From Neoalteromonas facilis (lineage in GTDB: Bacteria; Pseudomonadota; Gammaproteobacteria; Enterobacterales; Alteromonadaceae): DNA of 64,000 nucleotides. The notes beneath the pieces were generated by a model. That model was not told where the DNA came from. It did not search any database and saw only the letters and a program-made list of their open reading frames with translations. Both the position numbers and the translations under genes were made by a program. Shown one piece after another: positions 10,836 through 13,763 of the stretch (position 1 is its first letter; every line of letters starts with the position of its first letter). The stretch lies in the NCBI RefSeq assembly GCF_002807665.1, contig NZ_PEAY01000003.1, positions 458,103 through 522,102 of the forward strand, written 5' to 3'.

Positions 10836-11375
10836 ATGTTGCGTAAATTAGCGTGCTGCAAAATAGCCGCATTAGCACTATTAACCTCATTCAACAGCGT
10901 TGCGACAGAGCGCATGTATGGCGTGATCAGCGCTGGTTATGCGGATTCTGAATTCGCCCAATATTCAGACGGCGGTGTTGCCTATAAACTAGCCTTGGGG
11001 CATCAGTTTCATCCGCAATGGTATGTTGAAGGTGGATTCCAGCGCATAGCTGATGATGCCGCAAATGCTACTGATCCGATGAACGGCCTTGAAGGTGATG
11101 CGCTCTTTGTTTCAGTGCTCGGTAAAGCTGGCTCGAAAGATGGAGAGTTATTTTATCGTGTGGGTGTTATGCGGGCTGACTTAACTGGCAATCGCGTATT
11201 GGACGATATTATAGAGCCGTATGATGACGGCGTAATGGCTGGTATTGTGGGTGTAGGCTTTGACTGGTTTGTGGGCTTAAATACCATGGTTAGATTTGAA
11301 GTTGAATATATTGGCGGTGAAGATGACTTTCAATCGAGTGCTGCTTATGTAGGGTTACGCTACAATTTTAACTAA
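10836..11375 (+). CDS. Small outer-membrane beta-barrel protein (OmpA-like/porin fold), 179 aa
   Basis: A signal peptide (residues 1-22) precedes a compact set of amphipathic strands with YGVISAGYADSEF, WYVEGGFQRI and the C-terminal YVGLRYNFN, the pattern of eight-stranded OmpW/OmpX-like barrels. The ATG at 10836 is preferred over a TTG six bases earlier because AAAGGA lies seven bases before it. It is the last gene of the 8758-11375 operon, only 11 bases after the larger barrel, and is followed by a terminator. Its role is unknown; it may be a structural or accessory part of the same envelope function. Confidence 0.75.
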   Translation: MLRKLACCKIAALALLTSFNSVATERMYGVISAGYADSEFAQYSDGGVAYKLALGHQFHPQWYVEGGFQRIADDAANATDPMNGLEGDALFVSVLGKAGSKDGELFYRVGVMRADLTGNRVLDDIIEPYDDGVMAGIVGVGFDWFVGLNTMVRFEVEYIGGEDDFQSSAAYVGLRYNFN

Positions 11376-11388
11376 GCACAGCTAAGTT

Positions 11389-11430
11389 GCCTTCATATTG
11401 CGTGTGAAGTGATATGAAGGCTTTATTCTT
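11389..11430 (+). terminator. Terminator of the envelope operon
   Basis: A 10-bp stem (GCCTTCATAT at 11389-11398 with its complement at 11412-11421), 13-nt loop, followed by a T-rich tail. It lies 14 bases after the last barrel gene. Confidence 0.75.
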
Positions 11431-11472
11431 TTCTACTTCTACTTCTACTTCTACTTCTACTTCTACTTCTAC
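11431..11472. repeat. Hexanucleotide tandem repeat, (TTCTAC) x7
   Basis: Seven perfect consecutive copies of TTCTAC, directly after the terminator tail. A second array of seven perfect hexamers of a different unit occurs at 62915-62956. Simple arrays of this kind change copy number by replication slippage; this one is intergenic. Confidence 0.97.
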
Positions 11473-11608
11473 TCCCCAAATTGTTGCAGAATATTGTTAA
11501 CGCAATAGCAGACAAGATTAGCGCTACATTTTTATTTGAGAATGCAGGTAAATTCACCAAGGCGTGTGCTTTGTCATATACTGTGTAATGATTCGATGTT
11601 TGCATGTA

Positions 11609-11760
11609 GTGAACTACTTGTGAATGAATTCACGAGCTTCTAACTAAGCCGCAAAGCTCAGTTGTCTTTTTTGACGTTTCTTAGCACGCACAATCGCTGG
11701 TTTTGATTGTGTCTTGTTGCCAAATTCGCGTCCGATATCAGATGATGGCTTTAATAAGCC
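11609..11760 (-). ncRNA. Probable omega-RNA (reRNA) overlapping the tnpB 3' end
   Basis: TnpB nucleases use an RNA made from the 3' end of their own gene and the right end of the element. Here, just past the stop codon, the minus strand shows a stem and then AGTAGTTCAC, a sequence I recall as the typical scaffold end in this family; the flanking DNA at about 11589-11608 would be the guide. The 5' limit is a guess. Inference from position and pattern. Confidence 0.45.
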
Positions 11761-13002
11761 TTTGTCCGACAACTCTGTTCCAGAGTCCAAAATAAGATTA
11801 ATTGCTCGCTTTTTAATAACCGCGCTCGCGTTATTATCAGCATTGTCAGTATATTCGCACAGAGTACATTTAAATAGAGATTGACTCTTTCTGTTGTCTG
11901 CGTGAGTGTGGCCGCAATTAGCACACTCCTGACTGGTTTTATAGGGGGAGATATAGAAAACAGCCTTACCCGCTTTCTCTGCTTTATATTCGGTAAATGA
12001 TTGGATAATGTGCCAGCCTACCTCTAAGATGCCTCTGTTAAGCCCTGATTTCTGCTTTACATTTTTACCGTGTTGCTCAGCTGAGCCTTTTGCACTTCGA
12101 CTCATATTTTTTGTTTTTAAGTTTTCGAACACAAGCACCGACTTATTGCTGCTCACCATTTGATGACTGGCTTTATGGGCAAAGTCATGGCGAATATTAG
12201 ATTGCTGTGATTTCTTACGAGCAATCCTCGCACTTGTTTTTGAATATCGCTTCGAACCTTTTTGTTGCCTAGCCAGATTTCTTTGCAACTGTTTGATGTG
12301 GCGCTCATGGCCGCACATTTTCTTAATTTGCTCTGGCGTATAATTAATCTCTTTTTCACCAAATTGAACAGGTCTTTTGATGCCGCGATCTATGCCAATT
12401 ACTTTACTTTCTAGCTGCTCTCTCGTTTCGCCTTTTAAGTGCTTAAAATGATCTTCGCGAAGATAATCATTTAGAACACCATCCTCGTAACAAAAAGACA
12501 CCGACCAGCGGTCATGATTACGTTTGATGTATATGGATTTTGGGATTTCAAACGAACGATGGAACTTAACGTTTAATATGCCTAGCGGTTTTGACTTAGT
12601 GCCTATCTCTAACACCCAGCGGTTATCTTCTTTAAAAAGCTTAAAAAGTTCCTTTGTTAAATGAACGCTACCTTGATTTGATGCTCGCTTATGTTTTGGT
12701 CTACCGCAGACTCCCTTAATAAATTTTCGGTACGTATTGTACCAATTTGTAGTCCCGTTCCTTAGTATTTGACTTGGACAGTCATACAACCAAGGGGAAA
12801 GCGCTTTATCTTTATATTGGGAGTAGGATTGATTAGGCTCTGCGTAAGTGCCAACAGGTAGGTATTTTTTAGCAAAAGTTCTTAGATAAAGGTCTTCATC
12901 GCATTTCGCATTCCAAATAAATCTCTGGCAGCCTTGCCATTGGCGCAATGTTTTTACTTGCTCCAAAGTAGGCTTTGCCTGAAATTTAATCCCCGTTATC
13001 AT
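11644..13002 (-). CDS. tnpB: RNA-guided endonuclease TnpB (IS200/IS605 OrfB)
   Basis: A 452-residue TnpB: N-terminal helix-turn-helix-type region (ITGIKFQAKPTLEQ), RuvC-I with D205 in VIGIDRGIK, RuvC-II with E293 in VFENLKTKN, zinc ribbon made of C-x2-C in CANCGH and C-x2-C in CTLCEY, and RuvC-III D389 in ADNNAS. All catalytic residues are present, so the nuclease may be active. TnpB cuts DNA next to a TAM under guidance of an RNA from the element's end, which preserves the element. The frame is open for 20 more codons upstream, but the conserved N-terminus begins at the ATG at 13002. A LexA-type box lies 15 bases before this start. No tnpA partner is present. Confidence 0.92.
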   Translation of the reverse strand: MITGIKFQAKPTLEQVKTLRQWQGCQRFIWNAKCDEDLYLRTFAKKYLPVGTYAEPNQSYSQYKDKALSPWLYDCPSQILRNGTTNWYNTYRKFIKGVCGRPKHKRASNQGSVHLTKELFKLFKEDNRWVLEIGTKSKPLGILNVKFHRSFEIPKSIYIKRNHDRWSVSFCYEDGVLNDYLREDHFKHLKGETREQLESKVIGIDRGIKRPVQFGEKEINYTPEQIKKMCGHERHIKQLQRNLARQQKGSKRYSKTSARIARKKSQQSNIRHDFAHKASHQMVSSNKSVLVFENLKTKNMSRSAKGSAEQHGKNVKQKSGLNRGILEVGWHIIQSFTEYKAEKAGKAVFYISPYKTSQECANCGHTHADNRKSQSLFKCTLCEYTDNADNNASAVIKKRAINLILDSGTELSDKGLLKPSSDIGREFGNKTQSKPAIVRAKKRQKRQLSFAA

Positions 13003-13016
13003 AAACTTAAATGTGC

Positions 13017-13034
13017 ACTGTATATATAAACAGT
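13017..13034 (-). promoter_or_regulatory. LexA (SOS) box directly upstream of tnpB
   Basis: The plus strand reads ACTGTATATATAAACAGT, an almost perfect palindrome with the LexA core CTGT-N8-ACAG; with one base on each side it matches the 20-bp E. coli consensus at 18 positions. It lies 15-32 bases before the tnpB start, where LexA would cover the promoter. Confidence 0.75.
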
Positions 13035-13074
13035 AATATAGCGTGACGAGCCACAAGGTCAAGTAAAAGCATGA

Positions 13075-13112
13075 ACGTCTTGCATTTGGTTTTCGTTACA
13101 AAATGCAGACGT
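13075..13112. repeat. Imperfect inverted repeat, likely element-end hairpin
   Basis: ACGTCTTGCATTTGGT at 13075-13090 pairs with ACAAAATGCAGACGT at 13098-13112 apart from one bulge and one mismatch; 7-nt loop. Its place some 70 bases upstream of tnpB suits a left-end hairpin of an IS200/IS605-type element. It lacks a T-run in either direction, so a terminator is less likely. Confidence 0.6.
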
Positions 13113-13217
13113 CCAGTTTTTAACTCGGAAGCGTTAGCTTTTTGCGAAGACTTGATGCGGGATGTTTGCTTTTCTAACAAGGTGGTTTTACACGAACTTA
13201 ATTGCGAGCCTGACCAT

Positions 13218-13242
13218 GTGTAATTTATGGTACAAATTACAC
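13218..13242. repeat. Perfect 9-bp inverted repeat with 7-nt spacer
   Basis: GTGTAATTT and its complement AAATTACAC are separated by seven bases. It could be an operator for a dimeric regulator or part of the mobile-element end. No nearby homologous copy was seen. Confidence 0.6.
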
Positions 13243-13502
13243 CTACTATTGCTGTTTATTCCGTTATCAAAGAAGCTAAAGGGGTTTTTAGCCGCAGGTT
13301 AAGAGAGCGTCACTGTGGTAGAATTAAATAGTTTCGATCGGGTAAGCATTTTTGGTCTCTATCATATTGCTGTATTAGTAGCGGATGAGCCACAATAGAA
13401 AAAAATCAGAAAGTACATCAAATCACAAGACTGCCCGTCTTGACTTGGTAAAAAATCACCTAGATTGCTACGGTCAGTATTGAATACACATATGGAGAGG
13501 AT

Positions 13503-13763
13503 ATGAAGAACGAAATTGACAGTCGTTTTGTATTATCGGTGTTTGAGAAAATTAAACAGCATGGTGAGCAAGCTGATGATGCCTATCTACTTGATGGTGT
13601 TAAAGCCTATACAGATTTCGACGGTTATACGGTTTTCATTGAAGACGCATTGGTGAAGTTGCGCTTTGGGTTTCACAATCAATATCATTTTGATTATGAA
13701 AAATCGGAACACATGGAAGATTTCGAGCGCAAATTGAAACATATCGAGGCGTCATACGAATAG
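13503..13763 (+). CDS. Small conserved protein resembling DUF3081
   Basis: An 86-residue soluble acidic protein with a strong ribosome-binding site (GGAGAGG six bases before the ATG). Its sequence, with RFVLSVFEKIKQHG at the start and a TDFDGYTV stretch followed by FHNQYHFDYEK, resembles the DUF3081 family of short gammaproteobacterial proteins as I recall it. No function is known for the family. It is alone on the plus strand, converging with the hybrid kinase whose stop codon is only 36 bases away, and upstream lies the tnpB element, so operon context gives no hint. Gene call is firm; family name moderately so. Confidence 0.75.
   Translation: MKNEIDSRFVLSVFEKIKQHGEQADDAYLLDGVKAYTDFDGYTVFIEDALVKLRFGFHNQYHFDYEKSEHMEDFERKLKHIEASYE

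Follow-up and report, generated by a model that had tools for sequence, protein, structure and literature searches.

A putative LexA operator before tnpB in Neoalteromonas facilis and its recurrence on tnpB genes without a working tnpA

The integron integrase is LexA-controlled. Here we compared this and other closely related described systems with a LexA (SOS) box that lies upstream of an IS200/IS605-type tnpB gene in a 64,000-nt window of Neoalteromonas facilis (GCF_002807665.1, NZ_PEAY01000003.1, 458,103–522,102, forward strand; coordinates are counted from window position 1). The rcr promoters of ISCR1, ISCR2, and ISCR8 were reported to carry LexA boxes at the −10 region, with LexA binding seen by electrophoretic mobility shift assay for all three (PMC13393415, 2026); lacZ fusions in E. 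coli revealed SOS control for ISCR1 and ISCR8, whereas ISCR2 stayed very weak (PMC13393415). LexA was reported to repress the Tn5 transposase (Kuan and Tessman 1991, as cited in PMC8533742 and PMC13393415), a result still controversial according to PMC13393415, which also mentions SOS-controlled gene cassettes in passing. Transposition of ISDra2 in Deinococcus radiodurans rises after irradiation, a rise tied to single-stranded DNA and reported as not due to induction of TnpA expression (PMC2806898). Finally, a preprint described a TnpB gene drive in plasmids, in which element-free sites are cut, recombination copies the element in, and the element spreads (PMC11870625).

At the window locus, the palindrome before tnpB is probably a functional LexA operator that would repress tnpB and release it upon DNA damage, and operators of this kind appear to have arisen repeatedly on tnpB genes that have no working tnpA.

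The box, its promoter, and the host LexA sites

The tnpB 5' end of the window contains the following features:
11644..13002, minus strand: tnpB, RNA-guided endonuclease family, 452 aa, with the D/E/D catalytic residues present
13018..13033, minus strand: core of the LexA (SOS) box, CTGTTTATATATACAG on the coding strand (13016–13035 with flanks)
13035..13062, minus strand: predicted sigma-70 promoter of tnpB (−35 TTGACC at 13062–13057, 16-bp spacer, −10 TATATT at 13040–13035)
13016..13403, plus strand: fossil Y1 (HUH) tnpA, divergent to tnpB (profile match E 7e-28, positions 10–137 of 149)

The sequence ACTGTATATATAAACAGT is an 18-bp palindrome (13017–13034) that contains the core CTGT-N8-ACAG (13018–13033), and 15 bases lie between this 16-bp core and the tnpB ATG (13002, minus strand), as an earlier note on this DNA had placed them. 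The bare CTGT-N8-ACAG pattern was found once in the 64-kb window with 0.64 occurrences expected, which is not significant. When compared with the 20-bp E. coli LexA consensus, the box matched at 18 of 20 positions (two mismatches), in agreement with its earlier description as near-consensus; at up to three mismatches this consensus gave one match in the window and none in 100 shuffles.

The predicted tnpB promoter showed 10 of 12 matches, with two promoter-like sites found in the region against 0.3 expected, and the box starts immediately after its −10. Because the predicted promoter ends where the box begins, LexA would sit at the transcription start, so that, relative to this predicted promoter, the putative operator overlaps the promoter or start of tnpB. 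The gene downstream is intact, as had been claimed: its 452 codons encode a protein with three Pfam TnpB/Cas12f domains (OrfB/TNB, Cas12f1-like) above family cut-offs, a NCBIfam guided_TnpB match of 221 bits (cut-off 100), and all of the RuvC catalytic residues D, E, and D. TldR is a nuclease-dead TnpB repressor, and this identity was ruled out for the window protein by its intact RuvC triad. The divergent tnpA, which the earlier note overlooked together with the relation between box and tnpA described below, contains four stops in the matched stretch (one near the start and three internal), one of them after the first His of the HUH motif. It is a fossil with in-frame stops, and the window element has no functional tnpA.

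The host encodes LexA with autoregulatory boxes: two LexA boxes precede lexA in the window's own genome, one precedes recA, and others precede uvrD-like, FAN1-like, and further genes, while the dinB genes of relatives (two genes) are also preceded by a box. The genome holds 48 CTGT-N8-ACAG sites versus 30 for a reversed control pattern; of these 48, the sites in 35 loci (L021–L055) plus the tnpB ones were examined. A LexA matrix was trained on 15 non-tnpB boxes from this genome and its relatives, with leave-one-out scores of 15.0–24.6; two of the training genes had no Pfam match, and we take them to be imuA/sulA-like. Scoring with an Alteromonadales-type matrix had been proposed as a check, and with this host-group matrix the window box scored 24.8, with just one other window site reaching at least 10 (10.1).

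Several further host sites were observed. The highest score among the examined sites of the genome was 26.6 (L043, G000 C17:226945–226960), at a box whose 16-bp core is identical to that of the window box and which precedes a GTG-started open reading frame of 128 aa, a candidate SOS gene. Strong boxes also precede a HAD-family hydrolase gene (L032) and a DUF3224 gene (L034) in the same genome, both unexpected SOS candidates, and in a relative (L072) a strong box precedes a gene similar to the DUF3224 gene.

Recurrence of the box and its relation to tnpA

To survey TnpB 5' regions, PF07282 genes were collected from 246 family, 345 order, and 323 class genomes (overlapping samples) and from 17 named loci. 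Loci were fetched for part of the hits, with fragments and many near-identical copies skipped and with order hits taken from among the matches listed. In total, 142 distinct 5' regions were scored, and 33 frames were left out (21 without the N-terminus in the profile and 12 identical copies). The scores were bimodal, with 21/142 regions boxed at a threshold of at least 14 and 24/142 at a threshold of at least 12. One locus (L058) had been found through its box and was left out of the rates, which became 20/141 and 23/141, respectively, but was kept among the 24 boxed genes of the tree and tnpA counts. At the threshold of 14, 200 decoy matrices (same columns in shuffled palindromic order) yielded a mean of 0.06 and a maximum of 2 boxed regions, and control regions within genes and further upstream yielded 0/142 and 0/141. 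In terms of density, 21 hits fell in 18,602 5' positions versus 2 in 365,568 background positions, which predicts 0.1.

Boxed genes (at least 12) made up 8/29 of the family sample (including L058), 15/62 of the order sample, and 1/13 of the named loci, and they came from six families of the order (f1, f2, f6, f12, f20, and f25). In most cases, no more than about 20 bp separated the box from the start codon. When the box was mapped onto the TnpB tree, 12 changes were required, 11 of which were forced by well-supported branches. The window's own genome contains four PF07282 genes: the three without an intact tnpA are boxed (24.8, 22.4, and 21.3), and the fourth, the sole one with an intact tnpA, is boxless (score −5.2).

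Across the survey, a tnpA trace (Y1 profile) accompanied 1/24 boxed genes, namely the window fossil, versus 58/118 others (Fisher p 1.8e-5, kinship ignored), and an intact tnpA, for which the match had to span 100 or more profile positions with no more than one stop, accompanied 0/24 versus 41/118 (Fisher p 1.4e-4, kinship ignored). Among approximately 11 tree-independent pairs differing in the box, intact tnpA differed in approximately seven, and each time the box was on the member without it (median p 0.016). Such pairs include L168 (boxed, without tnpA) and L171 (boxless, with tnpA), whose proteins are 96% identical, and the Neiella pair L018 and L198. As far as these comparisons reach, the predicted box goes with the absence of an intact tnpA, and not every solitary tnpB carries one.

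A hold-out sample, the family of G370 with 75 genomes, was evaluated by a criterion fixed beforehand. It provided 19 new loci, of which 15 were scored (three lacked the N-terminus and one had no frame), and the box was present in 8/11 genes without a tnpA trace versus 0/4 with tnpA (one-sided p 0.026). Six of the eight boxed genes resemble a clade already known as boxed in this family. The N-terminus of another boxed gene, L313, resembles those of L310, L322, L176, and L255, all of which have tnpA and are boxless; a relative of these four, L224, is boxless without a tnpA trace. Given its kinship with boxless genes, L313 looks like a new box gain. The family of G398 (11 genomes) was considered as a further hold-out, and all four of its genomes with hits were already in earlier samples. 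Among 15 hand-picked plasmid regions, 2/8 without a tnpA trace and 0/7 with tnpA were boxed; the two boxed genes come from outside the order (Shewanella L279, 15.3; Neptuniibacter L281, 15.7, with ACAT for ACAG). Taken together, the survey, hold-out, and plasmid counts indicate a box that is frequent in the order and not universal on solitary tnpB.

Comparison of copies located at different places provided information on the box as part of the element. In three groups (the L122 group; L178, L180, and L181; L091 and L110), the copies agree over the stretch that runs from a GC-rich hairpin at the left end, across the box, to tnpB, and they diverge outside the element, so in the copies compared the box belongs to the element and travels with it. 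In two other groups (L177, L186, L147, and L137; L058 and L090), the spacer and flanks vary while the half-sites are largely preserved, a pattern that a binding site would be expected to show. The ratio of nonsynonymous to synonymous substitution rates (dN/dS) was 0.05–0.16 in nine usable of 11 pairs (eight boxed/boxed and one boxed/unboxed; of the two unusable pairs, one was misframed and one saturated), with dS above 1 in three of the nine, and these low values make the tnpB genes look under purifying selection. An origin of the box from a host SOS promoter captured on insertion was considered and rejected, since in the window the fossil tnpA is found beyond the box as seen from tnpB; it is also contradicted by the boxed copies, which share sequence past the box.

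Other features of the TnpB genes were recorded alongside. All four TnpB genes found in the 3.9-Mb N. facilis genome lie within approximately 115 kb of one contig (G000 C17, 469.7–584.3 kb: the window tnpB, L002, L003, and L046). A boxed clade (L003, L046, L087, L091, L110, and L168) has Gly at the canonical RuvC-II Glu; in the members read, a Glu lies a short way ahead of the zinc finger, which is reminiscent of the alternative-E TnpBs presented in PMC10711439, and D/G/D also occurs in 19 unboxed genes. In one genome, G945, 22 matches to TnpB were found, and the majority have a frame of 444 aa; among them, L319 is boxed and L306 scores only 2.5. Upstream of L179, which has tnpA, CTGTATAGTAAAGTACAG has half-sites two bases too far apart, and in several genes of another clade (among L103–L106 and L154–L159) only the ACAGT half is kept just before the ATG; these 5' regions may represent decayed boxes, nascent ones, or chance.

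The surroundings of the window element comprise two more features:
13426..13442, no strand assigned: inverted repeat CAAGAC-tgccc-GTCTTG just past the tnpA fossil, spotted by eye, a candidate left-end hairpin
11375..13503, no strand assigned: stretch holding the element, bounded by a beta-barrel-like gene (ends 11375) and a DUF3081 gene (starts 13503)

The beta-barrel-like gene is slightly below the Pfam cut-off. In three congeners, about 84–168 bp separate the beta-barrel-like and DUF3081 genes where the window holds the element. Between the tnpB 3' end and the beta-barrel-like gene lies a short tandem repeat of TTCTAC units (11431–11473). The 3' region of tnpB folds somewhat better than shuffles (z −1.87), a fold from which no firm omega RNA emerged, and an Rfam search of the element returned a single chance-level hit, on the opposite strand within tnpB.

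Proposed mechanism and rival explanations

By comparison of sequences, it is established that the predicted box is present, is of the host LexA type, is strongly non-random in its placement on tnpB 5' ends, moves together with the element in the copies compared, and goes with the lack of an intact tnpA. The earlier suggestion that LexA represses tnpB is well supported to this extent, through host-type boxes and a recurrence far above chance, while LexA binding, repression, and RecA-dependent induction of tnpB by damage are what we infer from established SOS biology and the ISCR precedent. Boxed tnpB nucleases are thus probably made when DNA is broken. In the proposed sequence of events, LexA bound at the promoter start would keep the RNA-guided nuclease off until DNA damage, via RecA-triggered self-cleavage of LexA, switched tnpB on. 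Damage would also supply single-stranded DNA, where IS200/IS605 excision in trans can occur, and, with RecA at its most active during SOS, each cut made by TnpB at an empty site could be converted by RecA-dependent recombination into a further copy of the element; for these reasons, timing tnpB to the SOS response may be adaptive, although our confidence in such an advantage falls somewhat short of even. The TnpB cut may itself signal SOS and sustain its own synthesis. A broader picture, which we offer tentatively and consider somewhat doubtful, is that solitary tnpB genes brought repeatedly under the SOS repressor are damage-licensed homing elements, made only when RecA recombination is active and holding SOS on by their own cuts until the site is refilled, with tnpA loss paired with operator gain.

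A number of results weigh against a functional LexA operator that recurs on solitary tnpB. Conservation of the box upstream of close tnpB homologues had been proposed as a check, and this expectation failed: the box was absent from seven distinct chromosomal homologues 48–50% identical to the window protein (Acinetobacter, Pantoea, and Marinobacter; an eighth, L013, was not scorable) and from the 5 of 19 plasmid homologues (approximately 50% identity) that were read. With the nearest examined homologues boxless, the history of the window box itself cannot be traced by alignment. Outside the order, 0/38 TnpBs of the class survey were boxed. Boxless genes were also common among those without a tnpA trace (60/83 in the survey, 3/11 solitary genes in the hold-out, and 6/8 in the plasmid set, namely L283, L284, L286, L287, L288, and L332); five plasmid relatives from E. 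coli, Klebsiella, and Vibrio were read (L284–L288), with a box in none. The canonical RuvC glutamate is missing in 6/24 boxed proteins. The absence of tnpA was judged mostly from approximately 500 bp of upstream flank, and the measure of an intact tnpA is rough because the stop count takes in bases before the start codon (L328, annotated as intact, shows two); for 12 boxed genes, stretches of 2.5–10 kb were inspected and contained no tnpA. Taken alone, the close homologues speak for rejecting the LexA idea, but the wider survey reverses this verdict. That comparison misleads because most of these homologues still carry tnpA, and boxes in the survey were found only where no working tnpA was found; among the five plasmid homologues, four have tnpA and one (Enterobacter L332) lacks both tnpA and the box.

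The palindrome could be a true LexA site that merely silences a costly nuclease once tnpA-linked control has been lost, with damage induction as a by-product; the control lost would have come from TnpA bound to the left end or from divergent transcription, and the host LexA would be the handiest substitute. We regard this account, including its version of the lost control, as possible rather than probable: it fits boxes seen solely where a working tnpA is missing and mostly so close to the start codon, but by itself it does not explain why so many lineages chose LexA, bearing in mind that only LexA-type sites were searched. The present data do not separate an advantage of SOS timing from this plainer exchange of repressors. 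Domestication of the window tnpB as an SOS-regulon host gene, for example a defence nuclease induced by damage or an RNA-guided regulator, would agree with its single full-length copy in the genome and with a fossil tnpA beside an intact tnpB frame and triad. It is nevertheless unlikely, as no homologue at E≤1e-60 was found in the other 294 of 295 family genomes searched, which gives no sign of vertical inheritance, and several boxed relatives occur in multiple copies whose left ends are intact.

The ends of IS200/IS605 elements carry hairpins, and in the boxed copies that were compared some 100 bp separate the box from the left end, as might be expected if the palindrome were a transposon end bound by TnpA or the site of another regulator, with an accidental likeness to LexA. 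However, those copies have a separate GC-rich hairpin at the left end, the palindrome is missing from genes with an intact tnpA, hardly any hits come from decoy palindromic matrices, and the match is to the host group's own LexA sequence, all of which make this explanation very improbable. A chance match in an AT-rich intergenic stretch, which the expected count of the bare pattern per window might suggest, deserves practically no credence, being contradicted by the consensus shuffles, the decoys, the hold-out, and the background density. A functional LexA operator on tnpB is the reading with which we proceed.

Comparison with known systems

A recurring damage switch on tnpA-less tnpB would offer a testable answer to the questions of how TnpB nucleases, likely ancestors of Cas12, are switched on naturally and why tnpB persists without tnpA, in which the nuclease is timed to the recombination that turns cuts into copies. 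If so, RNA-guided nucleases would join the SOS-controlled functions of mobile elements, and in these bacteria DNA-damaging antibiotics or UV would be predicted to trigger TnpB activity. Transposases under LexA control have been described (ISCR and, more controversially, Tn5). For LexA-controlled tnpB, consistent with the earlier statement that no well-described case was known, no paper was found by title or opening of the abstract among the matches listed, in a search that left subscription journals and most preprints outside its range.

Compared with these systems, the window locus shows both shared and distinct properties. The gene drive of PMC11870625 differs in that SOS control is not described there ("SOS" occurs 0 times in the text of the preprint). 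Like the transposases of the DdrO regulon of D. radiodurans, the locus would place mobile-element genes under a damage-response repressor, but those are Tn3- and IS5-family transposases with another repressor and motif, as presented in PMC8533742. Like ISDra2, it is an IS200/IS605 element, here with a putative link to damage, and the relevant passages of PMC2806898 describe no LexA box on the ISDra2 tnpB. With the Tn5 transposase and the integron integrase it would share the use of the host SOS repressor by a mobile element, the controlled enzyme being a transposase or integrase there and a nuclease here. The closest likeness in architecture is to ISCR, where a CTGT-N8-ACAG box also lies at the −10 region of a mobile-element gene (PMC13393415, in the text of which TnpB appears nowhere); the gene controlled in ISCR is the transposase that moves the element, whereas here it would be the tnpB nuclease of elements whose transposase is missing or dead.
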